A DNA stretch of 64,000 bases. Source: Pseudopyrenochaeta lycopersici. Its lineage: Eukaryota; Ascomycota; Dothideomycetes; Pleosporales; Pseudopyrenochaetaceae. The number at the start of each line of letters is the position of its first letter. Position 1 is the first letter of the stretch. Made by a program: the position numbers and the translations under genes. Below are positions 28,728-62,779 of this stretch, piece by piece. A model generated the notes under the pieces. It was not told the DNA's origin, did not search any database, and saw only the letters and a program-made list of their open reading frames with translations. The stretch is from assembly GCA_003313425.1 (NCBI GenBank), contig NHZP01000011.1, forward strand, positions 434,001 through 498,000. The letters are read 5' to 3'.

Positions 28728-29827
28728 CTAAGCAGCCTGTGCAGCAGCGACTAGGACATCAATCCCCGCCATGTGACTCCCTGTGTTCGAATTGCTGCTC
28801 CCGCCCTGCCATCGATCTGTGATTACACCGTTGTTAACTTTCGGCTGCGACCAAGCCGACTGGGCGTTCCTGGTCAAGAAGTCCTTGAAGCTCTGCTGCG
28901 GCTCGTTTTCATGAAGAGATGATAATCCCCTCACGAAGCAACCTTTGAACATAGCGCCTTGCACGTCCAATGGGCCACTGACTGGCTCTGTCAAAATGCC
29001 GTTCTCGCTGAGCCGCGACATCGCCGCATTGGCGATGTTGTACGCATGGCCGATGGGTCCACCATCTGACTTTGCTTTTGCAAGTTCGGACAGACCAGCA
29101 AGTATAACACCTTGGTTGTATGTAAACGTGGTTTTGCCATCATTTTTACAGGTTGTCTTGTCGATGCCATCGTTGACGAGCCCGTTGGCATTAATGACGC
29201 CAGACCTCCAAAACCAATCCCACTCCATCTGCGCCCAGTTTACATAATTCTGCTTTTCTGCGCCTTGGACTCGATTCGCTAGACTGGCTGCGACCGCTAG
29301 AAACAGCTCGTTGGCTATAGCAGCAATGGATTGGTGCTGCTTGTTCCACCAAATCCCGCCATTGCAAGGCGTATTCCAGCCTCCGGTCATGTCTTCAAAC
29401 AAATCTTTCGCAGTGCTAAGATACTTTGTATCACGAGTCAAGTCATATGCGGCAATCCAGCCCATAGCCCACCAACCCATGTCGTCGTAGTAATCATTTT
29501 TCCAGGCTCTTGCGTTAAGTTGATTACCAGACTTTGCGTATGTGTTGGAAATGATGGCGACGGCTGTTGGCCTGAAGGAACTATCTTGAATGCCGAAGCG
29601 GGCAAGTGTTTCAATCATATTTCCCGACTCCCACCATAGATTGTTCCTAAGTATGGCTTAATGACGTAGTAGTGAAAGAAGTTCGCGATTACATACCATA
29701 GCCCAGTGTTGGTGTTGTACCATTTGTCCTGCAATGTTTTTATGGCTGTATTCGCGTCATCTGCAAATGCGGCATAGACGGGACTAAGAGAAAGGAGAGG
29801 AAGGAAGAGCGATGAGAGGTGCTTCAT
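28728..29827 (-). CDS. Secreted GH76 alpha-1,6-mannanase-like glycoside hydrolase
   Basis: Two exons (29827-29697, 29646-28728) encode 349 residues; the 50-nt intron has GTATGT and CTTAG ends. A signal peptide (MKHLSSLFLPLLSLSPVYA) is followed by a complete glycoside hydrolase family 76 domain. The adjacent catalytic aspartates are visible at about residues 98-99 in KNDYYDDMGWWAMGW. Other family marks are CNGGIWWNKQHQS, the WDWFWRSGVIN segment and TFTYNQGVILAGL. GH76 enzymes cleave alpha-1,6-mannan backbones, either to degrade yeast mannan or, in the Dfg5/Dcw1 group, to link GPI proteins to the wall. No GPI-addition tail is seen here (it ends VLVAAAQAA), which favours a soluble, secreted mannan-degrading enzyme. 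Confidence 0.93.
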
Positions 29828-44869: not shown

Positions 44870-46663
44870 TTATTTGTTGGAAGGATATAGGTATTCAGAG
44901 ACGGGGAAGAACTCTTCCTTGATGAGACGTGGGCTGGTGAAGCGGAACATGGGGTTGGAGGAGCCGGCCTTGTCGTTGGTGCCACTTGCTCGGCTTCCAC
45001 CAAAGCTTTGCTGACCAATGAGGGCGGCAGTGGTCTTGCAGTCTGGCCATGGATTAGTAACTTGATTAAAACAGATATTATGAATAGACTTACTGATGTA
45101 GAAGTTGCCAGCAGAGTAGCGGAGGGCATCCTCTGCCTCGCGGATGGCCGCGCGGGAGTTGGCGAAGACGGAGCCTGTTAGGGCAAAGTTGCCACCAGCT
45201 TGGTCGACCTTTTCGAGAATCTGGCTCCATTGTGCGTCAGGGTAGACATGGATGGCAAGCACCGGGCCGAAGATCTCGTAGTTGAAGAGCTTGTGGTCCG
45301 GCGAGTCGGCAAGGTAGACGGTCGGCTGGACATAGTAGCCCTCAGAGTCATCGTAGGTGCCGCCAACCAGGAGCTTGAGCGAAGGGTCCTTGTTGCTCTC
45401 ATCGATGACGTTCTTGATCTTTTCGAATGAACGGCTGTGGATGACCGGGCCCATGAATGCTGCAAGGTCCTCGTGAGGGTTGCCCTGGGTGATTCCCTTG
45501 ACATCCTGAACCAAGGCATCAATGAACTCCTTGGACCGAGACTCTGGGAGATAGAGACGGGACGTCGCAGAGCACTTCTGTCCCTGGTACTCGAACGAGC
45601 CTCGAATGGTGTGTTTGACTGCAGAGGGAATGTCGGCCGAGGGGTGGATGAGAGTGAAGTTCTTGCCGCTAGTCTCACCAACCATACGAGGGAACTCGCG
45701 GTAGGTGCTGTTGCCAATGCCCTGACCAATTCGAGCACAGAGCGAGCGGAAGACGTCCGAGGAACCGACAAAGTTGAGACCGGCGAAGTCGCGGTGGTTG
45801 AAAACAACATCATTGATCTCTTCGGGCTCGCCAGGTACAAACTGGATGACATCCGGAGGCAGGCCAGCCTCAAGAAGAATCTTGTAGACAATGGTGCTGG
45901 CGTAGATGTTGGAGGGAGACGGCTTCCAGAGAACCACGTTGCCCATGATTGCAGGTCCAGAAACCAAGTTTCCGCCAATGGCAGTGAAATTGAAGGGTGA
46001 AACAGCATAGACAAAGCCTTCTACGGGGCGATAGTCGAGGCGAGACCACATGCCATCGGTGCCTCGCTCGGGCTGTTTCTCGAGAATCTCGGCGGCGTAG
46101 TTGCAGTTCAGGCGGAAAAAGTCGGCCAATTCAGCAGCAGCATCTACCTCGCCCTGCCAGATGTTCTTGCCCTGGCCAAGCATGGTCGCGGCAATGAGCT
46201 CGTATCGGTACTTGGTGGAAACAAGCTCTGCGGCCTTGAGGAAGATGGCTGCTCGATCGACAAAGGGCGTGTTCTCCCATGACTTTTTGGCCTTGAGGGC
46301 CGATTCAATGGCAGTGGAGACCTGCTCCTTGGTGGCGAGCGGGTAGCTCGTGAAGGTGGTTTTGTTGTCTGCTGGCAATGGCTGATCCCATGCCTTTGCG
46401 ACTTGCTGTGATTTGCCATTGAAGAGAATCTCGCTCTGGAGAGGGATCTGTGACTTCATGCGCTTGAGGGTAGCCTCCAGCTGTGTGCGTTCGGGCGAGC
46501 CCTTCTCGTAGGTGGGGTTTGGCTCATTTCGTGCATCAGGTAACCTGAAAGGCACAGTCGCTTTTGTGCGAAGCTGGGGCTGGAGAAAGGCACATCGCTG
46601 TGCATTCAGCATTGGCCGCCGGACGCCTCGAGGGAGCTGTGCAAGAGTGCGAATGCCCGACAT
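44870..46663 (-). CDS. PUT2: Delta-1-pyrroline-5-carboxylate dehydrogenase, mitochondrial (cluster gene 1)
   Basis: Two exons (46663-45094, 45042-44870) encode 580 residues. The 51-nt intron (45043-45093, GTAAGT, TTACTAAT branch, GCCAG) is a multiple of three without a stop, so a frame search reads through it; removing it restores NFYINCKTTAALIGQQSFGG, the expected family block. The enzyme oxidises glutamate semialdehyde to glutamate, and in animals also 4-hydroxyglutamate semialdehyde from hydroxyproline. The ALDH glutamate (Glu330, VGETSGKN) and nucleophile (Cys364, GQKCSATSRL) are present, as is SPFNFTAIGGNL. The start is a mitochondrial presequence. The gene is divergent from the aldolase gene, sharing a 354-bp promoter with a CGG-N8-CCG site. 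Confidence 0.97.
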   Translation of the reverse strand: MSGIRTLAQLPRGVRRPMLNAQRCAFLQPQLRTKATVPFRLPDARNEPNPTYEKGSPERTQLEATLKRMKSQIPLQSEILFNGKSQQVAKAWDQPLPADNKTTFTSYPLATKEQVSTAIESALKAKKSWENTPFVDRAAIFLKAAELVSTKYRYELIAATMLGQGKNIWQGEVDAAAELADFFRLNCNYAAEILEKQPERGTDGMWSRLDYRPVEGFVYAVSPFNFTAIGGNLVSGPAIMGNVVLWKPSPSNIYASTIVYKILLEAGLPPDVIQFVPGEPEEINDVVFNHRDFAGLNFVGSSDVFRSLCARIGQGIGNSTYREFPRMVGETSGKNFTLIHPSADIPSAVKHTIRGSFEYQGQKCSATSRLYLPESRSKEFIDALVQDVKGITQGNPHEDLAAFMGPVIHSRSFEKIKNVIDESNKDPSLKLLVGGTYDDSEGYYVQPTVYLADSPDHKLFNYEIFGPVLAIHVYPDAQWSQILEKVDQAGGNFALTGSVFANSRAAIREAEDALRYSAGNFYISKSIHNICFNQVTNPWPDCKTTAALIGQQSFGGSRASGTNDKAGSSNPMFRFTSPRLIKEEFFPVSEYLYPSNK

Positions 46664-47017
46664 GATTAGGTGTGTGAGGGGTACTGAGGGGTCGAAGCAG
46701 CTGGTGCAGAAGAGAAGACCATCACCGCAGAGCGCCTGCTAAGTAGTCTCGTCGAAGAACGTGGGGCCGCATGAGGCCAACGGGTTCTGAACCGACAGCA
46801 ACGCGTCACAGGCTCCTTGGAGCGATTGTAGTGAACCGCGAACAGCCGCCGCAAGGCAGCGTGCAGCGAGCCATGGGTGGACGCGTGATGGGCATTGCGA
46901 AGCCGGAGCAGCAGACGTGCAACGGGAGCACAGCCGACCTCACGAGAAAACGTGACTTTGTATCCGACAGGAGAGACGAGTAGAGACGGATAAGTAGGGG
47001 AGGGCAAGCCTGTGGCT
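46664..47017. promoter_or_regulatory. Shared divergent promoter of P5C dehydrogenase and aldolase genes
   Basis: This 354-bp region separates two start codons pointing away from each other, so the first and fourth enzymatic steps after the dehydrogenase can be co-regulated. It holds one CGG-N8-CCG palindrome at 46781-46794. Confidence 0.75.
46781..46794. promoter_or_regulatory. CGG-N8-CCG inverted repeat, site 1 (P5CDH/aldolase)
   Basis: The string cgggttctgaaccg has CGG and CCG ends eight bases apart and a palindromic centre (GGTTC-T-GAACC). It lies 117 bp from the P5CDH start and 223 bp from the aldolase start. It is a candidate site for the Zn2Cys6 regulator encoded at 53455. Confidence 0.65.
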
Positions 47018-48106
47018 ATGGTCGCAGAACTGCAGAATCGGCTTCAAGAACGGCAGCGAATTACTTCTAGAATGTCTCAAGTTCCTCCACGCGGCGTCTG
47101 GTGCCCAGCGGTCACCTTTTTCAATCCAGAAACGGACACGCTGGATCTCGAGGCCCAGTCGCGTTACTTTTCCTACCTCTCGACTACTGGCCTCGCAGGT
47201 CTCGTGATCTTGGGCACAAATGCGGAAACATTCCTGCTTACGCGAGAGGAACGCAAGACGCTGGTCGCAGCCGCCCGACGAGCGGTAGGCCCGTCTTTCC
47301 CCCTCATGGCTGGAGTAGGAGGGCACTCGACGGCACAGGTAAGAATTAGCGACTATGACTTCGGCTATCCTCGTTTAGCGAGCTAATCGGATCCCTCGTA
47401 GGTTCTGGAGCATATTGCGGACGCTACGGATGCCGGTGCGAATTCCGTGCTCGTGCTCCCGCCTGCTTACTTTGGACCCGCCACAACACCACAGGTTCTC
47501 GACAACTTTTTCGGGCAAGTGGCCCAGCGCAGCCAGCTTCCGATTGTCATCTACAATTTTCCGGGCGTCTGCAATGGCGTCGATCTCGACTCGGGATTCA
47601 TCACGCGCATGGCACAGCGCCACTCCAACATCGTGGGCGTGAAGCTAACATGCGGCTCCGTTGCGAAGATTACTCGATTGGCAGCCGTTCTCCCCAAGGA
47701 ACGCTTTGCAGTCTTCGGCGGCCAGTCGGATTTCATCATCGGCGGCCTGAGCTCTGGTTCCTCAGGGTGCATTGCGGCGTTCGCAAATGTCTTCCCCAAA
47801 ACCATTAGTCGCATATACACCCTGTATCAACAAGGCAAGACAGATGAGGCTCTCGCCCTGCATCAGAAAGCCGCGCTCGCCGAACAACCTATCAAAGCAG
47901 GTATCGCTGCCACCAAATATGCCGCAGCCATCCATAGCGCCACAGATGCTGGCATCAAGGATGCCGCCTCCAAGCTGAAGCCCCGTAGGCCATACGTCGA
48001 GCCGCCAAGCCCTGTCAAAGAGCAGGTCCAGTCGACAATGGCGGAGGTAGCCAAGATCGAGCGAAGCTTGCCAGTGGTCAACAAGCCCATTACCGCCAAG
48101 ATTTGA
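47018..48106 (+). CDS. 4-hydroxy-2-oxoglutarate aldolase-like protein, DHDPS superfamily (cluster gene 2)
   Basis: Two exons (47018-47338, 47402-48106) encode 341 residues; the 63-nt intron has GTAAGA, an AGCTAATC branch and CGTAG. The protein is a class I aldolase of the DapA/DHDPS fold. The Schiff-base lysine is Lys188 (IVGVKLTCG), the partner tyrosine Tyr158 (VIYNFPG), and GTNAE (66-70) stands in the substrate-carboxylate loop. The family includes dihydrodipicolinate synthase, sugar-acid aldolases and mitochondrial HOGA1, which splits 4-hydroxy-2-oxoglutarate to pyruvate and glyoxylate. Lysine synthesis in fungi uses aminoadipate, so a DHDPS role is excluded. Location beside P5CDH, transaminase and PRODH makes the HOGA reaction the best inference. 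A sugar-acid aldolase is the alternative. No clear mitochondrial signal is seen. Confidence 0.88.
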
Positions 48107-48739
48107 GCCTGTGCTTATCGTTTGCATTTTGCGTGCTGTGAGGCATTAGAGGGTGAATTGTGGCATATAGACTATCTTCAATATACACTATTATCTTATC
48201 AAAAGTGGAAAATCAGCGATCGGCGTTTGCGACCGGCGTTCTAGAGTACTCTTTTCTCGCGGTCGTCGTACTCACCCAGCCACACAGTACTCGGAGGTAT
48301 GCGATGACAAGACAGATCTGCTTTGCTTTTTCGGACACGCATCACCAGCAAGTGCAGCAAATTGATACCGTGAAGCAGAATCTCCACTCGCTTGGGCTAC
48401 CCCAGACCGTTCAGAACGTCAGAGGCTTCTACCACGTGGGGCCAGACTTCCATGCACCACCGCATTCCGTGCCGATGGTGAAGGCCGGCGGATCGGGCAC
48501 GCTGCCGTCACACCAGATACGCTCGGCCCTCGCAACTTTGCGGGGAAAGCGACCCAGACCCCAGGGAAGACCCGACTCTAAGGTCCGTAACACTACTAGC
48601 GCTATCACTCCAATCCCAAACTGCTTAAAAGTACGACGGTAGCCCCTATCCATGGGTTCGGGATCAACGAGTCCATCAACTCTTTCATCTACTCCTCTCC
48701 ATTCACCTTCAAATTGTTTGCCATTTTGCCATCTCCAAC
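48107..48739. promoter_or_regulatory. Promoter region of the cluster permease
   Basis: This 633-bp gap follows the aldolase and precedes the permease. It contains the CGG-N8-CCG site at 48494-48507 and further CGG cores (48217-48234 region, spaced nine). A frame of 160 codons here has no recognisable content and is treated as chance. Confidence 0.6.
48494..48507. promoter_or_regulatory. CGG-N8-CCG inverted repeat, site 2 (permease)
   Basis: The string cgggcacgctgccg has CGG and CCG eight bases apart. It lies 232 bp upstream of the permease ATG at 48740. Confidence 0.6.
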
Positions 48740-50585
48740 ATGATGGACGGCATCAAGTACGACGAGAAGACCGCCGAAGTCTCTTCGGACGGTGTCTATC
48801 GCAATGAGACCAACGAGATTGTTGGCCATGTCGACAACGTCGATCAACTTCGTCGACACTTGGGCAATCGACAAGTCCAGTTGATTGCCATTGGTGGTTC
48901 CATTGGCACTGCTACCTTCGTCTCTATCGCCAACGGTCTGGTCAAGGGTGGTCCTGGAAGCTTGCTTCTGGCTTACACCCTCTACAGCTGCATGCTCGGC
49001 TTGGTCAACAACTCAATGGCCGAGATGGCTTCCTACATGCCCGTTTCTGGTGGATTCATCCGCATGGCTGGCCACTGGGTTGACGAGGCGCTCGGTTTCT
49101 GGGTTGGCTGGAACTTCTTCCTCTATGAGGCGATTCTCATTCCCTTCGAAATCTCGGCACTCAACCTCGTCCTGACGTTCTGGAGCGATAAGATTCCCGT
49201 CGCAGCTGTCGTTGGCATCTGCATCGTTTTGTACTTGTAAGTTTCATCACTAGGATCGAGACTTTGGCAAAGTCACTAACAGATTGTTTGCAGCTTGATC
49301 AACGCATTCGTCGTGAAGTGGTACGGAGAGGCAGAATTCTGGCTCGCGCTCGGAAAAGTCTTCCTCATTTTGATTGTGTTTTCATTCACTTTCATTACCA
49401 TGGTTGGCGGAAACCCGAAGAAGGACGCGTACGGCTTCCGATACTGGAAAAGTGAGTTCGCACAAACGATGTTCACGTGAGTCACAGACTGACTGTTTAT
49501 TAGATCCCGGAGCTTTTGCTGAATACCTCACAACTGGTGATCTCGGCCGATTTGAAGGTTTCCTAGGTTGCTTGTGGAGCGCCTCCTTCACAGTTGTCGG
49601 CCCCGAGTATCTGTCCATGCTTTCCGGAGAGGTCAAGCTCCCCAGGCGCTACCTCAAGGCCGCTTTCAAGGTTACATACGCTCGTTTTGCCTTCTTCTTC
49701 ATTGGCTCTGCGCTGTGTGTCGGAATCGTCATTCCCTACAACGAGAAGACTCTCCTCGACATCATGAGCGGCAACTCTGAGGGCGCCGGAACCGCATCAG
49801 CTTCACCATACGTTATTGCCATGAGGCATCTGGGTATCAACGGTCTACCGCATTTGACCAACGCGCTGCTGTGCACTTCCATCTTCTCCGCTGGCAACGC
49901 CTACGCATACTACGGAACTCGTTCGCTCTACAGTCTGGCGCTTGAAGGCCATGCTCCCAAATTCCTTAAGAAGTGCACAAAGGCCGGTGTCCCCATCTTC
50001 TGCCTGTGCATTACCATGGTCTTCCCATTCCTAGGCTTCCTCAATGTTTCCAGTAGCACCGCCAAAGTCCTCAGCTGGTTCATCAACATCATCACAGCCG
50101 CTCAGGTCATCAATTACATCGGTAAGAATCAATCTCCAAACTGCTTGCGAAATATGCGCTGACCTCATCTCCCAGTCATTTGCATCACATACATCTTCTT
50201 CCACCGCGCTTGCAAGGCACAGGGTCTTGATCGACGCACTCTGCCATACTATGCCTACTTCCAGCCTTACACCACATGGATTGCTATGATCTTCCTCATT
50301 TTCGTTGTTACCTGCTACGGATACACCACCTTCCTCCCGGGTAACTTCACCGCCGACACATTCCTCACCTACTACATGATGGTGCTCGTCGCGCCCGTCT
50401 TGTTTTTCGGATGGAAGCTCTTCAAGCGCACAAAATTCGTCAAGCCCCTTGAGTGTGATCTTGTGTGGCAGGGACCAGTCATTGATGCGTACGAGGCGTC
50501 TTATAATGAGCCAGCTGTGGGTTTCTGGACAGAAATTGGCCAAATGTTTGGCTTCCGCAGGAACAAGAAAGTTGACAAGGCTTAA
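48740..50585 (+). CDS. Amino-acid permease of the proline/YAT type (cluster gene 3)
   Basis: Four exons (48740-49236, 49294-49451, 49504-50121, 50176-50585) encode 560 residues; introns are 57, 52 and 54 nt. It is a twelve-helix member of the fungal amino-acid permease (YAT/APC) family. Landmarks are RQVQLIAIGGSIGTATFVSI in helix 1, the NNSMAEMASYMPVSGGFIRMAGHWVD-type loop, GPEYLSMLSGEVKLPRRYL, and GNAYAYYGTRSLYSLALEGHAP. The family includes the proline permeases PrnB of Aspergillus and Put4 of yeast. It uses the proton gradient for uptake across the plasma membrane. Placement inside a proline/hydroxyproline gene cluster suggests it imports these imino acids, but sequence alone does not set specificity. 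Confidence 0.95.
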
Positions 50586-51222
50586 ATCAAGCTTATGATG
50601 TAACAACTCAGCCAGCGAGAGTTGGATAGCGACGAAATGCTTGCTAAGGATAGATGCCCTGATAGATGCTGAGCAATTTTTTAGATGGGCTGGGTTGTCT
50701 TTGTTCATATTTATTTACATACTGTCACTTTGAATACCCATTCTGTTCTCTCTGCAATGAACTCTTCAATGTCCTTTGAGTGAATTTCAGAACCATCTCA
50801 CGGGCTACAAAGTCCGCCAAAGTGCTTTTCCTCAAAATACCATGATACACAGCCGTACCACAACATTCCAACATACTGCACCAATATTGGCTAATGCAGC
50901 GGAAAAGCACGATGACGCCCCTCAACAGAGAACCCCAGTTCCTGTCGCGTAGTTGCCGGATCGTGACGGCACGAGAGCATGCAGGCGTTGTGGCAGACCC
51001 GATGCTGTGGGTCTGTCACAGGCATTCTCTGCAGCGACAGTCGGCATCGTTCCCGGGTGCGAACCATAATTATGCTGCACGTGCTTTGTAGCGGACTGCA
51101 TGCTATGAGGGACCGAGTGTACATAGATATCTGGGAAGAAGTGGTGCATTGCCACAAGAAAGCCAGAGCCATTTCCAATCTCCTCCCATACCATCCACCG
51201 ACTACCATCTTGAACCTACAAC
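50586..51222. promoter_or_regulatory. Promoter region of the cluster aspartate aminotransferase
   Basis: This 637-bp gap holds the 3' flank of the permease gene and the promoter of the transaminase, with the CGG-N8-CCG site at 51042-51055. Confidence 0.6.
51042..51055. promoter_or_regulatory. CGG-N8-CCG inverted repeat, site 3 (aminotransferase)
   Basis: The string cggcatcgttcccg has CGG and CCG eight bases apart. It lies 167 bp upstream of the ATG at 51223. Confidence 0.6.
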
Positions 51223-52548
51223 ATGTTCTTCCACGATGTCCCCCAAGGCCCTCCTGATCCAGTCTACACCCTCAAGAACGCAGTCGATGCAGATAAATCG
51301 CCTGAGAAAGTCGATCTAGGCGTCGGCGTGTACAGAAACGAGCAAGCGCAGTACAATGAACTTGGGGCTATCCGGGAAGCAAAGACAATACTTACCAAGA
51401 AAGAGCTTGGGCATGACTACGAGGTTACGACAGGAGATGCCGCGTTCGTTAAGAATGCTGCAAGCGTGTTGTTTGGAAGAGATAGCAGAGCTATACGTTC
51501 ATCACAGGTCACATCCGTGCAAGCAATCTCTGGGACAGGATCCATTCACCTTGCAGCGTTATTCTTGAGCCGCTGTGCCTCGTTCAAGGGGAAGAAAGTG
51601 TACATTGGAACACCAGCGTGGGGCAACTACGAACCGCTCTTCAACCTCGTCGGTCTTGAAGTCGTAAAATACAAGTACTACGATGCAACAAAAGGCAGTG
51701 TCGATTTCGCCTCCGTTCTCGACGCAGTGTCCAAAGCGCCAGAGGGAAGCATCTTTGTCCTGCAAGGATGTTGTCACAATCCCTCGGGCGCAGATCTCAA
51801 ACAAGACCAATGGCGCGAGCTTGCAAAAGCTATGAAGCCGAAACAACTGTTCCCGTTCTTCGATATGGCGTACCAGGGACTCGGCGCGAGTCTGGAAGAC
51901 GATGCATACGGGCTAAGACACTTTGTAGAGCACGGCTACGAACTGCTTGCGTGCCAGTCGTTTTCGAAGAACTTTGGCCTATACGGCGAGAGGTGCGGGG
52001 TCCTTCATGTTGTCAGTGAGAACGAGAAGGTTGCCGCAAATGTCTATGACCAATTGAGGTGTTTGATCCGTTGGGAATTCTCCTCATCTCCAGCATACGG
52101 GTCGCGATTAGTGAATACAATTCTTGAAAGCGAGCAGCTTACAGCCAAGTGGTAGGATAGTCGTCTTCTGTAGGTGTAGCGAAACTGACTTCAGTTCAGG
52201 ACGGACGAATTGATCATCATGCGACAGCGCTTAGTTGGCCTACGAAGAGCGCTATATAGCGAATTGGTAGAGGAGCGCAAGGTAAGATGCAACATCCTTC
52301 TACCATCAGATGCTAAGACCTCCCAGACACCAGGAGATTGGAGCGCAATTCTATCATCAACAGGACTCTTCTGCTTCTTGCCCTTGACGCCGCAACAAGT
52401 GGCGATTCTCGCGACCCAGTATCACATCTACATGCTGCCGAGCGGGCGCATCAACGTTTCAGGGATGAATCAATCAAACATCAAACGCATAGCTTCGTCG
52501 ATCGACGAGGTCGTGAGGGGCAATGGTACTATCTCGGCGCATCTGTGA
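51223..52548 (+). CDS. Aspartate aminotransferase (cluster gene 4)
   Basis: Three exons (51223-52151, 52200-52281, 52327-52548) encode 410 residues, the normal length of class I aspartate aminotransferase. The second intron is only 45 nt, in frame and without a stop (GTAAGA, TGCTAAG branch, CCCAG). The PLP lysine is Lys249 (CQSFSKNFGLYGER, with the following phosphate-binding Arg257). Other landmarks are VDLGVGVYRNE, CHNPSG (184-189) and DMAYQG (214-219). The enzyme moves amino groups between aspartate, glutamate and their oxo-acids; in animals it also converts 4-hydroxyglutamate to 4-hydroxy-2-oxoglutarate. No mitochondrial presequence is visible, so it may be cytosolic. Clustered beside P5CDH and the aldolase, it supplies the missing middle step of hydroxyproline breakdown. 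Confidence 0.96.
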
Positions 52549-52769
52549 GCGCAAGCTCGGGCAAAAGGCGTATCTTGGGGGTGAGGCGCAATTCGAGACT
52601 GTCACCACAGGGTTACAGTGATGGCTTCATTAGTAGACAAAGATCAACCCACAAATGATAACACTCGACACCTCGCTTCCAGCAGTCTAACCGATACTCT
52701 TATCCGATAGCAAAAGCCAAGGCTCGCAAAATCGCGCAGTTGTGTAGATCATACTGAGCTGTACGAGGC

Positions 52770-52783
52770 CGGCAAGCGACCCG
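52770..52783. promoter_or_regulatory. CGG-N8-CCG inverted repeat, site 4 (regulator gene)
   Basis: The string cggcaagcgacccg has CGG and CCG eight bases apart, 671 bp upstream of the regulator ATG. With site 5 it suggests autoregulation. Confidence 0.55.
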
Positions 52784-52813
52784 TAGGCGACTCGGTCGGA
52801 CCCAGACCATCAT

Positions 52814-52827
52814 CGGGCGGCGTCCCG
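52814..52827. promoter_or_regulatory. CGG-N8-CCG inverted repeat, site 5 (regulator gene)
   Basis: The string cgggcggcgtcccg has CGG and CCG eight bases apart, 44 bp right of site 4 (about four helical turns), 627 bp upstream of the regulator ATG. Confidence 0.55.
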
Positions 52828-53454
52828 GTCCCCTTGATACGCTCTGATACGCTCTGTTGCTTCCGCTTGACTCCATGTGGGATAAGAGTCCACGGGACCC
52901 ATAGTTCATGAGACCCATAGTTTTCGAGACGATAACACGCGAGATGTATCGTGTTCGCGATTACTATCATGCGCTGATAGACATCAACGCGACGCAAAGC
53001 CCGGAGGTGGGCGCAAGCCTCAGCTATCGAATCAATGAGACCTGCGTAGGTCGAGACAGAGAAGCCGTCTGAGAGTGATTGTTTTTAATGCTCCCCGCAG
53101 CGAGGTATTATCAACAATGCGCAGTATACCCTTGAGGATGTCCAAGAAGAGAAGCAATGGCGAGAAGTAACTAATCATCCGCGCGGAAACAACTAGGGTT
53201 GCCAGAGGTGCCAAGTGCGTTTACGTGATGGCCTTGCGTCTCCACAGATTCCCCGCATGCAGCGACCTCGCACGGCCCACAATCGAACTTTGGGAATCAG
53301 TTGGGCGGAAAGGGTCGGATTACCATACGCGATTATGCCTCAATCGTTTTTTTCTTCGTAACTGACAACTTTGTGAATCAATCTGCTGTGTGCCCTCAAG
53401 TAGTGGCATACTGAACATAATATCCAACAAATCGTAGGCAAGCTCTACGTAGCG

Positions 53455-55956
53455 ATGGCAACGTCCAACGACCACCGGAAAGTGACTAAGCGATCTTCCA
53501 ACGCGTACGCCCAAGTCTGTCCGACATTCAATTTTGACATTGACATTCGCAAACAGTTGCTCGCGATGCCGAAGACAAAAGATCAAATGCTCGGGCCAAC
53601 AACCATGCTCAAACTGCGGCAGACGGAACTTGACGTGCATTTTCGATGACCGAGACAACAAAATTCTGGTGACTCAAGGGTATGAGCAGGCACACCTTTG
53701 AAGGTACTTATGGTTCCTGATACCACTCAGATACCTCTCCGACTTGCAGGCAAAAGTCGCCCGGTTAGAGCAAAACTCAGAAAGAGCCTCAAGTGCACCG
53801 GCGGCTCGACCATCAGAACAGCATGCACCAGAGCGTGCTGACAGGGAGGTTTCACCAGAAGGTGAAGACCAAAGGCAACCAGCGAATCAATTCAGTCCTA
53901 GCGGAACGAGAGAAAGTTCGCCTAGAAGCAGACAGGCGGATCCTGATGGAGCGAATCTGATGAATCCGCTGCTTGAGTCGCCATCAAAGTTTATGTCATC
54001 TTCTTCTGGAAGGTCATGTGAGTTCAGATATGAAGACTTAAAGGACTGTGACTGACCATTCAGTTTACCTTGGCACTTCCTCAAACTGGTCCTTCCATGG
54101 ACAAATCCTCAATCTGGTTCACGAGCACATCCACAAGTCACCACTGCCTGGCGCAGACTTGTTGTTCGATGGCTCGGCGTATGACCTTCCCTGGGACGGA
54201 ACTCGAAGTCTACCAGACTCAAGCGGCCCTATTATTCCAAGTATTGACTACGCTATTTTTCTAATCAACGCTGTCAAATTCCATTGCGCCCAGTTGGTGC
54301 ACTTGTTTGATGAAGATGAGTTCAATGCTAATCTACATGCATTTTACTCCAACTCAGAAAACGGAGCGTGGAAAGAGAGTATGTGGTACATCCACTTCCT
54401 TCTAATCATTGCCTTCGGCAAGACATTTGTTCAGCACAAACATCACAACCCGAGACCACCTGGTGCCGACTTCTTCGTCCAAGCACTCCAGCTTCTACCT
54501 GATACCAACCGTCTTTGCCGAGAACCAGTCACCGCAGTCGAAATCCTGTGCTGCATAGCGCTGTACTTGCAAGCGTTAGACTCGCGAAATGCGGCGCATG
54601 TAACAGTACTACTTTCTTCTCCTTAGCAGTTTTTGTTAATAGCTAAATTTGGACAGATAGGTCAAGCGATGCGAATAGCATTAGCCCAAGGAATGCACAC
54701 AGACATGCCAGTCGAGAATCTAGGAGATCCACTCGTTCAGCGTTGTCGAAAAATATGGTGGACAGTTTACATTCTCGACCGACAAATGACCTCATTGATG
54801 GGTCTGCCTCAGTCCATTCGAGATGACGATATCTCCTGTCAGTTGCCGGTATTCTCTGGCTCAGCTCAGCGAGCAGCAGCACTCAACATGCAGATCAAGC
54901 TTGCCCGGATATACGCTGAGATTGCGAGAAGTATGTTGAACAGCTCCTGTGGCTCTATTGGTTATTATGCTGACATTCAACTTCAATAGCTGTATATGGA
55001 GTCAAAGGGCGACTTCGCAAAAAGTTTGTTGTTAGTATAAAGACGGTGTTGGACGGGCTTGTATCGTTAGCAGAGGAACTTCGACAAGGATTTCCTCTGC
55101 ATGCCGATGAGCGGTTTGGCGGTATCTCAAGGATGCCAGCGCACTTACATCTGCTTTATTATCAGGTAAGGTGCACAGCGTCTCCTCCCACGTCTGTCAT
55201 GACTAACGTAACCTCGTAGACCATTGTTGTTGTCACAAGGCCTCTATTATTCTGCTGCTTGAAGAAGATCTTTGAATCTCCCCGCGAAGTACAACCCCTG
55301 ATCTCATCGAAGAAGATCCGACAATTACTGCACATGTCTCTAGAAGCTTCACAGAAGATTCTGAACATTCTAGAGAGCTTGCAAGATCAAGGCTTGCTTG
55401 GTACAGTTTTCAATTCGCCATTTGAGCGTCCAATGCTAATACTAGCATAGAAACGTTTCTGCCATGGGATCTCGACTCTCTGTTTGTGTCAACGATGGTG
55501 CTCATACTCACGCGATTCGTCGACTACAGCCTTATGGACAACCAAGCATCGTGGCTCGATAAAGCCTACGCCTTCCTCGAAACTATGATATCGAGTGGTA
55601 ATCGCATCGCAGCGTTCCGCGTAATCGAGCTGCGCAAACTCGATGAAATGTTGACAGAGTATACACTCAATCAACATCGACCGTCAACCACTTCCCCGCC
55701 CATGAATGGGCCGGGTCTTGTTATGCAACGCACACTCTCGTTCCCAGAAGGCTACCACTCAACAGCAGGGTTGTTGCATGTAGATGACATGCCACCGCCG
55801 CCTTATACTGGATTAAGTGATGAGGGGAGTGGGTTCGGCGATGATTTGACCGCTGAGCAGATTCTCGCGGTTGCTGAGTCAATGGATATAGAAGGCACGG
55901 ATTGGTTGTCTTTTGCCGCTCTAGATAACTACCAAATGGTGGATCCCAGCATGTAG
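53455..55956 (+). CDS. Zn2Cys6 transcription factor, probable cluster regulator (cluster gene 5)
   Basis: Eight exons encode 710 residues: 53455-53504, 53557-53679, 53731-54017, 54064-54599, 54657-54930, 54990-55165, 55220-55400 and 55451-55956. The first 52-nt intron splits the zinc cluster, which after splicing is C18-X2-C21-X6-C28-X5-C34-X2-C37-X6-C44 (ACSRCRRQKIKCSG). A coiled-coil dimerisation stretch follows (YLSDLQAKVARLEQ), then a low-complexity Ser/Pro/Glu linker, and a fungal-specific transcription factor domain with IGQAMRIALAQGMH and CRKIWWTVYILDRQMTSLMGLP. The acidic C-terminus (DEGSGFGDDLTAEQIL) may activate. Zn2Cys6 dimers bind paired CGG triplets; yeast Put3 uses CGG-N10-CCG. 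The recurrent CGG-N8-CCG in this cluster is its likely target. Confidence 0.93.
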
Positions 55957-56086
55957 AACCAATGAATCAACAAGAGGAGGAATTGTACAACAATTTTACG
56001 ATTATGAAGTAATAATTAATGACTGTCAGAGTAGCTTTTCTTCAAAATCTATGTCTAATATGTACGCCATTTATATGCAAATTTAA

Positions 56087-57468
56087 TTACAGCTTCGACT
56101 TCGTAGGCTCCTCATTCTGTATATCACGCAGCTCTCTGACATCACCTATTCGCCAACTAACATCATCATCAAACGTCTCACCCTTCGCCTTTGGTTTTGG
56201 TATTCTCCATCGCCATCTTGAGATACTCTGCTTGCCATCAGCCTCGTTGAGCAGGTTGTCAACCCAGCGGCCAACGATGGGGAACATCTTGAAACCGTGG
56301 CCGGAGTCGCCCGTGAGGATCATGACCGAGGAGGACGTCTCGGGTACGTAGTCGACGACGAAGTCCGAGTCGGCGGTATCTGCGAACCAACATATGAACT
56401 TCTCCACCAACGGCCGGTCGGCGAGATATGGCAATGTTTGTCGGAGGAGTTCGCGCATCTTTCTCTCATCTTCCTTGGGCACGAAGCGGATCACATCCTC
56501 GGGCGCTTCAGACACGCCCGTGGATGGGTTGGTGTTGATGTAGCCACCGCCCATAGGACACAACTTGAGCAGGTTCGTCTTTGGATCCGGCTCGAAGAAG
56601 AAGCCAAGATCGCGGGCGTATGTCACGGGGATTCCGCGAAGCGCTGCAGTCTCGTCGTCGGTGAGGCGGACGTGTGCAACTGACCATGACTTGGCCGAGA
56701 CTTCTGTACCAATATTCGGCACAATCTTGTGAGCTGCAGCTCCGACGGCAACGACGACGAGCTTTGCTGCATGGAACCTCCCAGCTTTCGTCTTTACACC
56801 TACGCTCTTTCGCGCGTGCCCGCTCCCTTCGTACACAATCTCCTGGATGCTTCCAAGCTTCTCTCCGAGAAAGAAGCGGACGCCGTTCTTCCTCGCTTCA
56901 CGATAGATTCCCCTGAGCGCGTTCGCTGAATGCACATACCCATCATACTTGCACACATAGCCTTTCCAACCAGGCATTTCGCCAGTAAACTGCCATGCAC
57001 CAGCGACGTTGCGGATGTCCTCTGGACCGGAGATTGTATGCAGAAAGGGCTTCATCTCTGGGTGCTTTGCTGCTGCTGCTTGAAACCTGCGCATGGTGTC
57101 CGCTGCTTTTTGAGGCGCAGCGCCAGAAACGCAATTTAAGAAGCCGACACGATGGAAGTATGGTGCAAAGAGTGGAGTTTGCCAAGCGTGTGTTGCTTCC
57201 TACATCGTTCCAATTAGACAATTTGTAGATGCCGACGTCTTGTATGGCTCACACGTACAACTGCAAGGTTTGTGTAGAAATCGTCCTCATATTCAGCGCG
57301 CATGATCTTGTTCAGATCGTTCGCAGCTGACCATCGCGACGGTATTTCCTCGTCTCTCTCAAACACTGTAATGTCTGTATATCCCTTGTTGGAGAGTTCG
57401 AGAGCAGTGGAGAGGCCAAACGCTCCCCCGCCAATAATGGCAATTGGATCACTTTTCGAGATGCCCAT
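56087..57468 (-). CDS. Covalent-flavin amine oxidase of the sarcosine/fructosyl-amino-acid oxidase family, peroxisomal (cluster gene 6)
   Basis: Two exons (57468-57259, 57199-56087) encode 440 residues; the 59-nt intron has GTACGT, a TCTAATTG branch and TGTAG. The FAD-binding motif is at 12-18 (IGGGAFGLSTALEL). Cys340 in FICWFADTADSDF aligns with the cysteine that bonds FAD in monomeric sarcosine oxidase and fungal amadoriases. The C-terminus ends Ser-Lys-Leu, so the enzyme should be peroxisomal, near catalase, which fits peroxide production. Relatives oxidise sarcosine, L-pipecolate, L-proline or fructosyl amino acids. Within this cluster a cyclic imino acid or N-substituted (hydroxy)proline is a reasonable guess, but the substrate is unproven. 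It converges with the regulator gene, with 130 bp between. Confidence 0.92.
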
Positions 57469-57640
57469 TTTAGCGAATGTAGGAGGTCGAATGGAAGATG
57501 AAAGGGTTGTGGGTGCGATGTAGTCTGAGCTTCTTTGGAAGGCGTGGAGACGTATTTACGCGCATCTGCATCTTGACAATCCCGAACGCCGATTTTACTG
57601 TCTATGGTATCCAGACACAAGTTACATCATGTCATGGGTA

Positions 57641-57654
57641 CGGGATGCTGTCCG
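57641..57654. promoter_or_regulatory. CGG-N8-CCG inverted repeat, site 6 (amine oxidase)
   Basis: The string cgggatgctgtccg has CGG and CCG eight bases apart, 172 bp upstream of the amine oxidase ATG at 57468 (minus strand). Confidence 0.6.
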
Positions 57655-57846
57655 AACGAGTCTCGTGAACACCCCACGGTCGACCATCTTGAGCGTTATC
57701 GGAATATCGGAATGCCCCACCACAAGCGCGGCAGTGAACATTCTAGCGCCCTTTGGTCAAAAAGCTCCTACACACCAACACTAAGCATGCATCGCTAGCG
57801 ATGCCGAGTGGCTCGCGTTCAGTCAGATAATCTAGGCCTACATGCT

Positions 57847-57860
57847 CGGCAGCCCTCCCG
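57847..57860. promoter_or_regulatory. CGG-N8-CCG inverted repeat, site 7 (carrier-like gene)
   Basis: The string cggcagccctcccg has CGG and CCG eight bases apart, 305 bp upstream of the carrier-like gene ATG at 58166. Confidence 0.6.
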
Positions 57861-58165
57861 CGTGGTTGCTGGCCCCAGTCGTTCGTACTTACCCACTCGG
57901 GTATGCGTGAACGAACAGGCATGTATCCAATGTGGGATGGCCGAAGGAAAGCGTTGATTGACATGGTATCGATGCCCAAATGCATGTGCCTAATGACTTC
58001 TGGCCTGACAGATTGGGGAGAGGCAAATGACTCAAGTCGGAAGAGCCGCGATGTACGGACATCCGTGCATCTGTTCTAGTTGTCCCTGGGGCGCAGCGAA
58101 GTTCAGACTACGCTGGCGTCGCCAAATACTCGCGTTGTGTGTTCCAACTTACGAACAACTCCGCC

Positions 58166-59123
58166 ATGACACAACAACTTCAGTCTAGTCGTTTTCATGG
58201 AGACTGGACAAGTAGCAAATTACCAGGAGTACTGGCAGGAGATATTGCTGCTGCGACTATATCGGCAACCGCAATCAGCCCGGTCATCACAGCTATAGAC
58301 AGGTTGGTGTGACCAGTTCTACAAAATGAACCCTTCAAATTAACGACTCCACAGGGCTGTTGTTGAGAATGCCGCTTCAAGGAATCGACCGTTACTTTCA
58401 ACACTAAAGACTCATATTCTGTGTTCGTTTCGGCATCCTCGACTCTTTTTCGCAGCGAAACCATTCTTCTACGTATGGACTTTGTATGCAGCGACATACA
58501 CCACTGCAAATGGAGTCGAAAGCGTTGCTAAAGCATTCACTTCGAATGCAGAGCAAATGCTAGTCAGCTCCATCACTTTTCTTTCGACATGCCTGGTGAA
58601 TGTTCCGTTGGGAGTGTGGAAGGATGTCCGCTTCGTACAGCTTTATGGACGACCTACTGGAAACAGCCCTGTAGTCAACACACCGACAACTACGAAGCCG
58701 CCAACACCTCAAGTGCAACCTCCTCCGGTTCAAGCAGCCAGGTTTCCAAGGATAGTTGGCGCAACCTTCCTCTTCCGCGACGCTATTACCATCTTTGGAT
58801 CTATCAACTTACCACCAATGTTGACGTCTTCGATACCCGACACCATGTTCTCAAATCCAGCAATTAAAATGGCTGCGTTGCAAATTTTTACTCCAGTGCT
58901 CTCTCAGGTCGTTGCAACGCCGGTCCACCTTCTCGGTCTCGACTTGTACAGCAATCCCCATAGTCAGAGTTCAGAGCGGGCGTCAAGGATAAGAAGGAGT
59001 CTAGGTCCAACAACTGCAATGAGATGTGCCAGAATTATACCAGCTTTCGGTGTTGGGTTGGTCATGAACACGGGATTGCGAGAGTACTTTCATAGAAAGG
59101 CGGCAGTAGCGACTCCTGAGTAA
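58166..59123 (+). CDS. Mitochondrial-carrier-like membrane protein of unknown substrate (cluster gene 7)
   Basis: Two exons (58166-58302, 58355-59123) encode 301 residues; the 52-nt intron has GTTGGT and CACAG ends and keeps frame. The protein has several hydrophobic helices arranged in three loose repeats, each with a Pro and a charged residue near a helix end: ISPVITAIDRA, VNVPLGVWKDVRF and VATPVHLLGLDLY. This spacing and the total length recall mitochondrial carrier proteins, though the strict P-x-D/E-x-x-K/R motif is degenerate. A Pro/Thr-rich loop (TPTTTKPPTPQVQPPP) interrupts the second half. No signal peptide is present. In a cluster whose enzymes are mitochondrial it could move an imino acid or pathway intermediate across the inner membrane; this is inference. 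I cannot name the family with certainty. Confidence 0.8.
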
Positions 59124-59814
59124 ATCATTCAAGTCGCAGTTTTGCATATTCGGGATCAGCGGAGTTTTGGGTAGAAACGGTATATAAAACGGCATTGGTA
59201 GCATTATACAGTGTGTTTGGTAAATCAGAATATACATTTTGTAGGCAAAGCCTCAAGCCAATCACCTCTAATTTCCATCTACATCGCAAAATATCACACG
59301 CAAAGTAAAAGCTTATGTTGAACATCTGATGTTCCAGATGGAAACAGTATGCCCCTATCCGAACGCTTCACAGCCACAAGGCCGATATCGTAGCTAGATA
59401 GCCCGATTCAAAGCGCCTGACAACTAACCCCGCATTAGTGAGCTTCTAGAAGTAGATTTGGGTCATTATTGGGTAATTCGCATGATCCATTGGGCTTCCT
59501 ACAGCTTATCGTGTTTCGTAGCGGCGGAAGTGGCCACTACTAGCTACAGAAAGGGACTTATTTTGCGAATCGGTAGGGTGTCCGGGTTACGGTACATCGA
59601 TGCGAAAGTCACGAGGGCAGTGACGCCCCACGTTCTCGATCCAGGAGCGGGGTCATGGAATACATGATAGATTGATGGCAAGATAAGGATATTTATTTGG
59701 AAAGTAGTTGAGCAGTAACTACACACTCCTGATCATACTGCTCTTCAACCTCGATACTACTCCACTGCTTCTTCAGTTATCAGTAATCTCATCTTGACTA
59801 CACTGAGAGTTATC
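59124..59814. promoter_or_regulatory. Promoter region of the cluster dehydrogenase
   Basis: This 691-bp gap precedes the dehydrogenase gene and contains the CGG-N8-CCG site at 59571-59584. No coding content was recognised. Confidence 0.6.
59571..59584. promoter_or_regulatory. CGG-N8-CCG inverted repeat, site 8 (dehydrogenase)
   Basis: The string cggtagggtgtccg has CGG and CCG eight bases apart, 230 bp upstream of the ATG at 59815. Confidence 0.6.
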
Positions 59815-61282
59815 ATGCTTCAACCCCGATTCGGTGGCACGACATTACGATGCGTGGCAAGCAGGAAGGGTGTCAGTGGTGGCTTCAACACATTTGAAGT
59901 TCGGTTGTCTTCGACAACTGCAGTCCCACGAGGGAAGACAGAAACAACGCAGATACCAACCCAAACACTCGCACAGCATCCATTGTCAGCCATGCCAACT
60001 GGTATGCTCCTGCGATCACTCTTTGTCGCTACAGTCTCTTCCAACAAGTTTCTCTTAATACCATCACTGCACCTCCTCTCATTTTTCTCAAAGCCAAACC
60101 GAAGCTATCTCTTCAATGTCGACCGGAACCCTGTGCTTAAGGCAATCTTGAAGCGGACGCTGTACAATCAATTTTGTGCCGGAGAGACGGAGCGGGAAAC
60201 GAAAATGTGTGTAAAACAGCTGAAGGACCTTGGGTTCAAGGGCGTTATTCTCACATACGCGAAAGAGATGGTCTTTGATCACAAGTCTAAATCCGCAAAC
60301 CTTCACGCTTCAGAAACGTCCCAAGAGAAGGCTGCGTTGGTACATGACAACGACATTGATGCTTGGCGAGTTGGGACTCTAAAGACTGTTGATCTCATCT
60401 CCGAGGGTGATATCCTTGCCCTAAAGTATGTCTGCACATTAATCCAGAAACGGAGCACGATACTAAAGCTTTTGCAGAACAACCGGCGGTGGTCCGGCAG
60501 TTACAGATGCCTTTTGTAAAGGAGAATTGCCACCCCAGCAAATGCTCGATGCTCTGGACGAAATTGCCGTCAAGTGCAAAGAACGTGGTATTCAAATTAT
60601 CGTCGACGCCGAGTCTCAGCACTGGCAGAAGGGAATCGGACGCACCACTCTTGAGCTGATGCGCAAGTTCAACCGCGATGGAAAAGCAGTCATTTATAAT
60701 ACCTATCAAGCATATCTCAAAAGCACCCCTGCAGTTCTCGCAAGTCACCTCGCTGAGGCGCAGAAGGACGGATTCACGCTGGGCCTGAAGCTTGTCCGAG
60801 GCGCGTACATACTTTCTGATGACCGATCCTTGATTCACGATACGAAGGAGGATACGGATAACGCTTACAACGGCATTGCACAAGGCGCGCTCCGCCAACA
60901 CATTGGCGATTTTGGTGCTTCCGGTCCATCCGCGCGCCCCTTCCCATCCGTTAATCTCTTCCTCGCCAGCCACAACCGTGAAAGCGTTCTTTCAGCAAAC
61001 AAGCTCCACCGCCAGAGGACAGAAGCTGGTCTTCCTACAGTCCCGGTTGCGTATGGTCAGCTTCACGGTATGTCGGACGAGGTCAGCTTTTCATTGTTGG
61101 CGGAGAAGAGCGACAACGAGCTGCCGCCTGAGGTTTTCAAGTGCTCAACCTGGGGAAGTATGGGAGAGTGCGTGGGATATTTGCTGCGAAGGGCTGTCGA
61201 AAACCGTGACGCGGTTTTGAGGACAAAGGATGAGTTTGCAGCGCTGAGAGCGGAGACTCGGAGGAGGTTCTTTTCTGCATGA
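59815..61282 (+). CDS. PUT1: Proline / hydroxyproline dehydrogenase, mitochondrial (cluster gene 8)
   Basis: Two exons (59815-60425, 60478-61282) encode 471 residues; the 52-nt intron has GTATGT, TACTAAAG and TGCAG. The first 45 residues form a mitochondrial presequence. The FAD-dependent PRODH barrel follows, with RGIQIIVDAESQHWQ, NTYQAYLKSTPAVL, LGLKLVRGAYI and the substrate-binding arginines in GYLLRRAVENRDAV (Arg441, Arg442). It oxidises proline to pyrroline-5-carboxylate and passes electrons to quinone. In the C-terminal helix, canonical enzymes read K-Y-x-P-[YW]-G, whereas this one reads K-C-S-T-W-G, with Cys426 at the Tyr position. Animal hydroxyproline dehydrogenase has Ser there. The upstream ATG gives the best presequence; an in-frame TTG precedes it. 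Confidence 0.95.
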
Positions 61283-61815
61283 TTCTTTTTGCATAATTCT
61301 ATGAGCATGAGCGGACTGTAATGCATCTTCCCCAAAGCCTATGATCGTTCTTTAGATATCAATAGACGTTCTCCAAACCTAATGGTCGTGGAAGTGTTGA
61401 TCAGCCGTGTGTTAACATCTGTATCGAGAAGTCGCGAAGCGCGTATGTGCAATAGCTCCCCCGCATGCAAGTAAGCGGTTAGGCTCGGTTTTAACATCGT
61501 CATATCTGCGCTGTGATGCAACTGACCATGTGGATGGGTATGCAGGCGGATCTAGCCTCCGTAGTCGCTCCTATAATACTCCAATCAGACTAAGTGGGGA
61601 CGGATCTCCTTCCGAGACCACTATCCCTCCATCGCTGGCGAAGTCAACACAACGCCAATTGAAGATACACTCAACATTACCACCAACAAATTCCGACGTT
61701 CTCATTACTCATTACTCTACGATATTTCAACAATCTGAAGAAGTGGCCGCCTGTTGGCTTGAGCACACAGTTCTTTAGATTGCTGTTCATATATTGATCA
61801 ACCCCAAAAGCAAAA
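61283..61815. promoter_or_regulatory. Promoter region of the cluster P5C reductase
   Basis: This 533-bp gap separates two plus-strand genes and contains the CGG-N8-CCG site at 61601-61614. No coding content was recognised. Confidence 0.6.
61601..61614. promoter_or_regulatory. CGG-N8-CCG inverted repeat, site 9 (P5C reductase)
   Basis: The string cggatctccttccg has CGG and CCG eight bases apart, 201 bp upstream of the ATG at 61816. Confidence 0.6.
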
Positions 61816-62779
61816 ATGCCTGGCCAAAGCCTTTGCATTCTGGGCTGTGGTAAGTTCCAATGAAGCTGGAAATGTGATCTGAAACCTGACAATTATGCAA
61901 GGTAACCTTGGAACCCCAATCTTGAAGAGTTTGATCAACGCGTCTGGTGCCCCCCAGGCAGCTCAATTCGACAAATTCATCGCCTGCGTGCACAGCGAAA
62001 AGTCCGAAAAGAGACTGAGCGATCTTTTCCTTGAACATAAAGAGTCAGGTAGACTAGTTATTTCAAGAGGCGACAACGTCAAAGCCGCACAGGATTCTGA
62101 CATCGTAATTCTCGGTGTCGACCCATCTGATGTCGAAACCACGCTCAAGCAAGATGGCCTCGCCCACGCGTTGAGGGGGAAACTACTCATCAGCGTAGCG
62201 GCAGGTTGGCCACGGGAAAATCTTGAGAGACTTATTTCCGCAAATGACTCCGCAAAGGAAGAAGAGAGAATATGGGTCCTACGCACACTTCCCAACGTAG
62301 CAGCCCAAGTATCCCAATCCATGACTGCAATCGAAGACCCAGCCCCAGGCTTCCCAGCAAAATATATGGAAATCGCCGACTCAATCTTCTCCCAAGTTGG
62401 ACAGGCCGTGCACATTGCCCCCCGCCTGATGAACGCTACCACGGCCGTCGGGGGCTCTACACCTGCCTTCTGGGCCATCATCTGCGACGCCTTCATTGAT
62501 GCGGCAGTCGCGGTAGGTCTACCGAGAGACATTGCCCAAGCGCAAATTTACCAGAGTATGAGGGGCACTGCGGAGATGCTCCAGAGTGGGATCCATCCGG
62601 GGGTTTTGCGAGACCAGGGAACGAGCCCGGAGGGGTGCACGATTGGAGGCATTATGGTCATGGAGGAGGCTGGTGTGAGGGGGGCTCTGGGAAAGGCATT
62701 GAGAGAGGCGGTGACGATTGCGAGGTTGATGGGGAGTGGGAAGGAGGACTTACATGTCAATGATACTCGACAGTCCTAG
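61816..62779 (+). CDS. Pyrroline-5-carboxylate reductase family protein (cluster gene 9)
   Basis: Two exons (61816-61849, 61902-62779) encode 303 residues; the 52-nt intron (GTAAGT, CCTGACAA branch, GCAAG) splits the dinucleotide-binding motif LCILGCGNLGTPIL, which is complete only after splicing. Other P5CR landmarks are the SVAAGW strand, VLRTLPNVAAQVSQSMTAI, and the C-terminal signature running from GGSTPAFWAIICDAF through SPEGCTIGGIMVMEE. The family reduces pyrroline-5-carboxylate to proline with NAD(P)H; animal forms can also reduce the 3-hydroxy analogue to hydroxyproline. Finding a reductase in a breakdown cluster is unusual. It may recycle an intermediate or handle a different ring compound. 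The gene is probably a paralogue of the housekeeping enzyme. Confidence 0.94.

Follow-up and report, generated by a model that had tools for sequence, protein, structure and literature searches.

In the genome of the ascomycete Pseudopyrenochaeta lycopersici, nine neighboring genes probably form a single cluster for the catabolism of trans-4-hydroxy-L-proline (hereafter hydroxyproline) to pyruvate and glyoxylate, by a route that would begin in the mitochondria, end in the peroxisomes and possibly accept proline as well. These genes lie within the window, the stretch of 64,000 nucleotides that we analyzed (contig NHZP01000011.1, here C11, positions 434001-498000 of a 62.7 Mb genome). An earlier note, made from the letters of this DNA alone, had placed at 44870..62779 a nine-gene cluster encoding a complete hydroxyproline pathway with its own regulator. 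We built the gene models by hand; their reading frames are open, their introns are of the GT-AG type and 45-63 bp long, and the models end exactly at these limits, at the stop codons of the first and the last gene. In window coordinates and in order they are:

44870..46663, minus strand: aldehyde dehydrogenase of the pyrroline-5-carboxylate (P5C) dehydrogenase family (P5CDH), 580 aa; one intron, 45043-45093; Pfam Aldedh; yeast Put2 (4oe4) at 568 bits
47018..48106, plus strand: DHDPS-family class I aldolase, 341 aa, C-terminus AKI; Pfam DHDPS on both exons; 3QFE at 473.7 bits
48740..50585, plus strand: PrnB-like amino acid permease, 560 aa; three introns; Pfam AA_permease
51223..52548, plus strand: aspartate-aminotransferase-family enzyme (AAT), 410 aa, C-terminus AHL; Pfam Aminotran_1_2; aligned to 1ama
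53455..55956, plus strand: Zn2Cys6 transcription factor, 710 aa; seven introns; Zn_clus 39.2 bits, Fungal_trans 62 bits
56087..57468, minus strand: FAD amine oxidase of the monomeric sarcosine oxidase (MSOX)/fructosyl amine oxidase family, 440 aa, C-terminus SKL; Pfam DAO; 3djd at 220.5 bits
58166..59123, plus strand: carrier-like protein, 301 aa; gene model only
59815..61282, plus strand: proline-dehydrogenase-family enzyme (ProDH), 471 aa; Pfam Pro_dh
61816..62779, plus strand: pyrroline-5-carboxylate reductase (P5CR), 303 aa; TIGR00112 at 213 bits (cut-off 196.75); P5CR_dimer

The families claimed by the earlier note hold for eight of the nine genes, each with its Pfam assignment; among these the P5C reductase is confirmed by TIGR00112 together with P5CR_dimer, and the Zn2Cys6 factor by both of its domains. 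The carrier-like protein, a label resting on degenerate motifs picked out by eye, matches no Pfam family even at an E-value of 10. A single-sequence structure prediction for its exon 2 was unusable (mean predicted local distance difference test, pLDDT, 37.4).

The proposed route would run as follows. The PrnB-like permease would import hydroxyproline; in the mitochondrion ProDH would oxidize it to 3-hydroxy-P5C and P5CDH would oxidize the latter to 4-hydroxyglutamate. This compound would pass to the peroxisome, where AAT would convert it to 4-hydroxy-2-oxoglutarate and the aldolase would split the product into pyruvate and glyoxylate. P5CR would recycle surplus hydroxy-P5C to hydroxyproline, and the cluster's Zn2Cys6 factor would act through a CGG-N8-CCG repeat in each cluster promoter. 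In this scheme we infer both the substrates and the compartments of the enzymes.

The grouping of the nine genes is more than chance, as is evident from a repeat present in all of the promoter regions and from the sharing of contigs by homologues in other fungi. The scan covered the 7 intergenic regions with one or more start codons, 4451 bp in total, and looked for two CGG triplets in any of 3 arrangements with any of 16 spacings between them, 48 classes of pattern altogether. The inverted repeat CGG-N8-CCG is present in 7 of the 7 regions, at 10 sites (18 in the whole window), and other CGG/CCG spacings from 4 to 12 give just 0-2 sites in the same regions. The sites are:

46781..46936: two repeats (46781, 46923), divergent P5CDH/aldolase promoter
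48494..48507: one repeat, upstream of the permease gene
51042..51055: one repeat, upstream of the AAT gene
52770..52827: two repeats (52770, 52814), upstream of the Zn2Cys6 gene
57641..57860: two repeats (57641, 57847), divergent amine oxidase/carrier-like promoter
59571..59584: one repeat, upstream of the ProDH gene
61601..61614: one repeat, upstream of the P5CR gene

Shuffled 3000 times with dinucleotides preserved, the regions contained 0.89 sites on average; no shuffle had more than 6 sites or more than 4 regions with a site, so that neither 10 sites nor 7 regions ever occurred. When the best of the 48 classes was taken in each of 300 shuffles, one of them reached 6 regions, 15 reached 5 and none reached 7. 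The repeat is absent from about 1 kb upstream of three paralogues in the same genome, namely the ProDH gene on contig C14, the P5CDH gene on C7 (start estimated) and the permease gene on C15, and from two promoter regions on C44; its background in the paralogue regions is 13 per 75,902 bp. No exact 8- to 10-mer is common to four or more of the cluster promoters. CGG-N8-CCG is of the type that a Zn2Cys6 dimer would recognize and is a putative regulator site. Because the divergent region common to the amine oxidase and carrier-like genes holds two such sites, both genes probably belong to the regulon. What stands of the "own regulator" of the earlier note is the factor gene and a putative shared site in all seven promoter regions, which we infer the factor to bind.

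Linkage in other fungi, the search for which the earlier note had proposed, was assessed from the best 120 of 1759 aldolase, 4824 AAT and 1188 ProDH hits, many of them in rows without an organism name; rows whose longest contigs were of identical size were taken to lie on one contig. By this measure, 22 contigs are common to at least two of the best-120 lists (aldolase-AAT 14, aldolase-ProDH 13, AAT-ProDH 11), and 8 occur in all three, from Cucurbitaria, Aaosphaeria, Kalmusia, Zopfia, Karstenula, Ophiobolus, Plenodomus tracheiphilus and Byssothecium. Many of the 22 are of megabase size and so are weak evidence; eight are below 384 kb, three of these only 30-51 kb. Locus tags, valid as gene distances only if numbered along the contig, can be set against the window, where the aldolase and AAT genes are 2 apart and the AAT and ProDH genes 4 apart. 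In Paraconiothyrium the aldolase (003064) and ProDH (003070) genes are 6 apart and in Paraphaeosphaeria the AAT (002787) and ProDH (002791) genes 4 apart, both as in the window, and the Kalmusia tags 001802, 001804 and 001809 give distances of 2 and 5. The order differs in Diaporthe australafricana (aldolase 005424, AAT 005418).

Two kinds of composite gene model also occur in the lists. A P5CR domain stands within the same model in 20 of the 120 ProDH rows (P0251-P0341). A bifunctional fusion enzyme was considered and rejected: the junctions are not the same from model to model, the YLLRR motif is missing in 15 of the 20, and we take them for merged models of neighboring genes. Read in this manner, the models show that the ProDH and P5CR genes, separated by 533 bp in the window, are adjacent in many genomes; public ProDH-P5CR models, which often miss the conserved C-terminal end of ProDH, are probably a recurrent annotation error. 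In one Fusarium oxysporum model (P0196), the single such case in the 120 AAT rows, an HpcH/HpaI aldolase domain precedes the aminotransferase. Since separate full-length AATs exist in F. oxysporum (P0176), P0196 is probably also a merged model, in which an HpcH/HpaI gene adjoins the AAT gene. Enzymes of the HpcH/HpaI family split 4-hydroxy-2-oxo acids into pyruvate and an aldehyde, the reaction that we propose for the DHDPS-type aldolase.

The C-terminal triplets suggest where the last two steps would occur. AHL of AAT fits the consensus of the type 1 peroxisomal targeting signal (PTS1), AKI of the aldolase is PTS1-like, and SKL of the amine oxidase confirms the peroxisomal signal that had been claimed for it. 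We counted matches to an extended pattern, [SAC][KRHN][LMI], and to a strict one, [SAC][KRH][LM]; such triplets have a background frequency of 0.4%. The extended pattern ends 37 of the 48 closest aldolases (76-95% identity), 16 of these with the strict form; more distant aldolases (71-75%) mostly have no PTS1-like end, and some end in SRL. Full-length AATs of at least 62% identity are PTS1-like in 14 of 18 cases (12 strict), with P0170, which ends in PRL, among those that do not match. No PTS1-like end was found in the 120 ProDH homologues, nor in the 5 of 8 DHDPS paralogue loci of the same genome that were read to the C-terminus. The N-termini of ProDH and P5CDH are basic, with 5 R/K and 0-1 D/E per 30 residues by simple counting. 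The aminotransferase and the aldolase thus look peroxisomal from their C-termini.

The earlier note had named the animal route, and the cluster matches it in part. According to the excerpted text of PMC8779045, the four-step animal route consists of a ProDH-family enzyme, P5CDH, an aspartate aminotransferase (AspAT) and the HOGA aldolase, in vertebrates PRODH2, P5CDH, AspAT and HOGA1; the cluster encodes all four types, for the same succession of steps. The same excerpt places all four vertebrate enzymes in the mitochondrion, whereas the fungal set, judged by sequence alone, is not wholly mitochondrial, the aldolase and AAT having ends of the peroxisomal type. The fungal genes are moreover clustered and probably co-regulated, and the fungal aldolase comes from a different subgroup of the DHDPS superfamily than HOGA1.

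For this last reason the term "HOGA-type" could not be upheld as a sequence assignment. Among solved structures the closest to the aldolase is 3QFE (473.7 bits over 313 residues), which we take to come from Coccidioides and whose title, "putative dihydrodipicolinate synthase family protein", assigns no function. Human HOGA1 (3s5o) reaches 92.4 bits, and is not nearer than other DHDPS-superfamily enzymes (6t3t 118.2, 3pb0 101.6, 1o5k 99.7). The subgroup motif GTNAE occurs in 119 of the 120 listed homologues, and the closest among these best 120 of 1759 are from Pyrenochaeta, Cucurbitaria and Neocucurbitaria; names in the homologue table such as "4-hydroxy-2-oxoglutarate aldolase" look automatic. 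Within the genome the nearest paralogue is on C5 (61% identity) and five others have 27-41%. Fungal sugar-acid aldolases of the GaaC/LGA1 type act on L-threo-3-deoxy-hexulosonate or similar compounds. We propose, from the gene context, that the cluster enzyme is a 4-hydroxy-2-oxoglutarate aldolase.

Most of the other enzymes also have paralogues in this genome. In AAT, aligned to 1ama, the Lys and both Arg to which we ascribe roles at the dicarboxylate site are kept; the other AATs are on C13 (45% identity), C48 (37%) and C19 (37-42%). An AAT active-site signature (IRWEFSSSPAYG; WEFSSSPAYG in 73 of the 120 rows) was tried and found uninformative, the C13 paralogue having the related RSEISNPPAYG. 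A second P5CDH, on C7, has 57% and 54% identity in two pieces and, aligned to yeast Put2 over the same 370-372 residues, scores 474.8 bits against 421.5 for the cluster P5CDH. There is a second P5CR on C26 (36%), and of the PrnB-like permeases elsewhere the nearest is on C15 (65-74% in two pieces). The second ProDH, on C14 (L003 5472-7021), has 35% identity to that of the cluster and, by eye, GAEEE in place of DAESQ and FLLRR in place of YLLRR; both substituted positions are presumably catalytic, and by these residues the cluster ProDH appears to have the more usual active site of the two. By eye, the C14 gene has as neighbors a gene for a Zn2Cys6-like regulator and one similar to cystathionine gamma-synthase. 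As an active-site test for the ProDH substrate we considered the position of PutA Tyr540, a residue that presumably favors proline and is, we believe, replaced by Ser in PRODH2; both paralogues have Cys there (by eye), which does not discriminate, and a search of the PDB with ProDH gave no match at E 0.001. The nearest solved relatives of the amine oxidase are fructosyl amine oxidases (220.5 bits) and then fructosyl peptide oxidases, with sarcosine oxidase distant; that its substrate is N-methyl-hydroxyproline is a guess.

Several observations weigh against the hydroxyproline interpretation or parts of it. Two CGG-N8-CCG repeats (44388, 44513) lie 3' of P5CDH, before a ribosomal protein gene, where no gene was recognized (a small gene or transcript was possibly overlooked), and two more are in coding sequence (47434, 62511). 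The extended PTS1 pattern behind the counts above was picked after the C-termini had been inspected, and in the full sets of 120 the strict form is found in just 29 aldolases, in 17 AATs (all among the 86 that are full-length) and in no ProDH. The HOGA1 score of the aldolase is below those of several bacterial DHDPS enzymes and of YagE. Because the C14 ProDH lacks two presumed catalytic residues, the principal enzyme for proline in this fungus may be the one in the cluster. Homologues of the cluster-type ProDH are moreover found in Alternaria, Bipolaris, Pyrenophora and Parastagonospora, genera absent from the best-120 aldolase and AAT lists, and because of these close homologues the cluster ProDH may also serve proline. 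That AAT and aldolase are both missing from some Pleosporaceae is in turn no more than suggestive of joint action; within the best-120 lists the exceptions are Didymella and Boeremia, with AAT rows and no named aldolase row, and Curvularia clavata, with the reverse.

A rival explanation is a plain proline cluster, in which ProDH, P5CDH, the permease and the regulator burn proline and AAT and the aldolase are mere neighbors engaged in another process. The excerpt of PMC5983819 describes the same four kinds of genes linked in the prn cluster of Aspergillus nidulans. Two further points are that the active-site residues of the cluster ProDH, whose roles are presumed, are the more usual ones of the two paralogues and that its type occurs in genera absent from the other two lists. 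We nonetheless regard this explanation as unlikely: in other fungi the aldolase and AAT genes occur on the same contigs as ProDH, in this cluster their promoters have the repeat too, a Put2-like P5CDH is encoded elsewhere (C7), and an aldolase is superfluous for proline breakdown. Nor does the cluster resemble prn in all respects. It adds the aldolase, AAT, P5CR, amine oxidase and carrier-like genes, has no PrnA-type repeats (CCGG-N-CCGG, CCGG-N6/7-CCGG) in the 7 scanned regions, and its divergent promoter serves P5CDH and the aldolase where that of prn, in the same excerpt, serves ProDH and the permease. It is still less probable that the same enzyme types act on a different imino acid or glutamate with a substituent at C4, such as 4-methylproline or 4-methyleneglutamate. 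The sequences do not fix the C4 substituent, the aldolase has no characterized close relative in the PDB and the amine oxidase has no role in a plain hydroxyproline route; retro-aldol cleavage, however, requires a 4-hydroxy group, and hydroxyproline is by far the commonest such compound.

The bacterial hydroxyproline pathway employs an epimerase, a D-hydroxyproline oxidase, a 1-pyrroline-4-hydroxy-2-carboxylate (Pyr4H2C) deaminase, which belongs to the DHDPS superfamily, and finally an aldehyde dehydrogenase (ALDH), the alpha-ketoglutarate semialdehyde (KGSA) dehydrogenase. If such a route elsewhere in the genome degraded hydroxyproline, the cluster would have some other task, which we consider very improbable. 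Proline-racemase-family (PF05544) matches, the family of hydroxyproline 2-epimerase, do occur in the genome, only on C2, C8 and C78, and a locus on C44 groups a gene of the DHDPS family with genes for an ALDH, an amino acid permease and a Zn2Cys6 factor. For the proteins of C2 and C8, which the model scoring covered, the best matches are however trans-3-hydroxyproline dehydratase models, and no 4-hydroxyproline epimerase or other cut-off was passed; the C44 ALDH is closest to betaine-aldehyde models, below cut-off, and C2, C8 and C44 are separate contigs. A bacterial-type route traced through these three contigs was thus judged weak. Among the nine cluster genes there is no PF05544 match and no epimerase or racemase gene, and the cluster ALDH is of the P5CDH type. 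The racemase-family genes are at L046 1354-2520 (C2) and L047 1477-2685 (C8), and the C2 protein has a Ser in SGANT at what we take to be the position of the usual first catalytic Cys. At the C44 locus (C44:112001-121999, L038 1767-9812 into L039 317-1240) the Zn2Cys6 factor, an FMN-dependent dehydrogenase, the DHDPS-family gene (the top DHDPS score in the genome), the ALDH and the permease adjoin one another; further on, a long (tac/act)n run (L039 4747-5096) gives rise to spurious polyT/polyY open frames.

The nine-gene cluster is flanked on one side by the ribosomal protein gene (about 42.2-43.0 kb), by eye presumably eL24, and on the other by a weak protein kinase match past 63.1 kb (23.8 bits, cut-off 31.7). 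Further upstream the window holds ordinary fungal genes: an MpaB-like oxygenase (2224-3651), a Dsc3 ubiquitin ligase subunit (17817-18866), a MatE transporter (23750-25414), a GH76 gene (28731-29657) and an AMP-binding enzyme (36501-37700). No tRNA genes were found in the window.

Hydroxyproline is abundant in collagen and in plant wall proteins. The excerpts consulted report that A. fumigatus grows slowly with hydroxyproline as nitrogen source (PMC2526178), that hydroxyproline from hydrolyzed collagen falls in A. niger cultures (PMC12333218), and that Prodh and P5Cdh of Cryphonectria parasitica complement yeast put1 and put2 (PMC3767830). In the open-access literature searched, with subscription papers largely outside its scope, we found no account of fungal genes for hydroxyproline breakdown or of a cluster of them.

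The complete hydroxyproline pathway of the earlier note is, in our opinion, the best reading of these nine genes, backed by the promoter repeat, by linkage, by the C-terminal signals and by the HpcH/HpaI neighbor in Fusarium, and probably right in its main point, with qualifications to the HOGA label and to the likeness with the animal route, and with the further one that ProDH may also serve proline. The chemistry is known and the arrangement is new. The cluster offers candidates for each step of hydroxyproline breakdown, together with a candidate regulator and a candidate site for it. A broader picture, to which we give somewhat less than even chances, would be a dedicated hydroxyproline regulon of filamentous ascomycetes, in which CGG-N8-CCG is the site through which the cluster-encoded Zn2Cys6 factor governs the genes, with breakdown divided between two organelles, perhaps a handover by the carrier-like protein, an aldolase replaced in Fusarium by one of an unrelated class, and a peroxisomal amine oxidase feeding in N-modified hydroxyproline. 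The predicted compartments bear on how glyoxylate is kept from the cytosol, a matter central to human primary hyperoxaluria according to the excerpt of PMC8779045. If the two-organelle route is true, toxic glyoxylate would be formed only beside the enzymes that use it.

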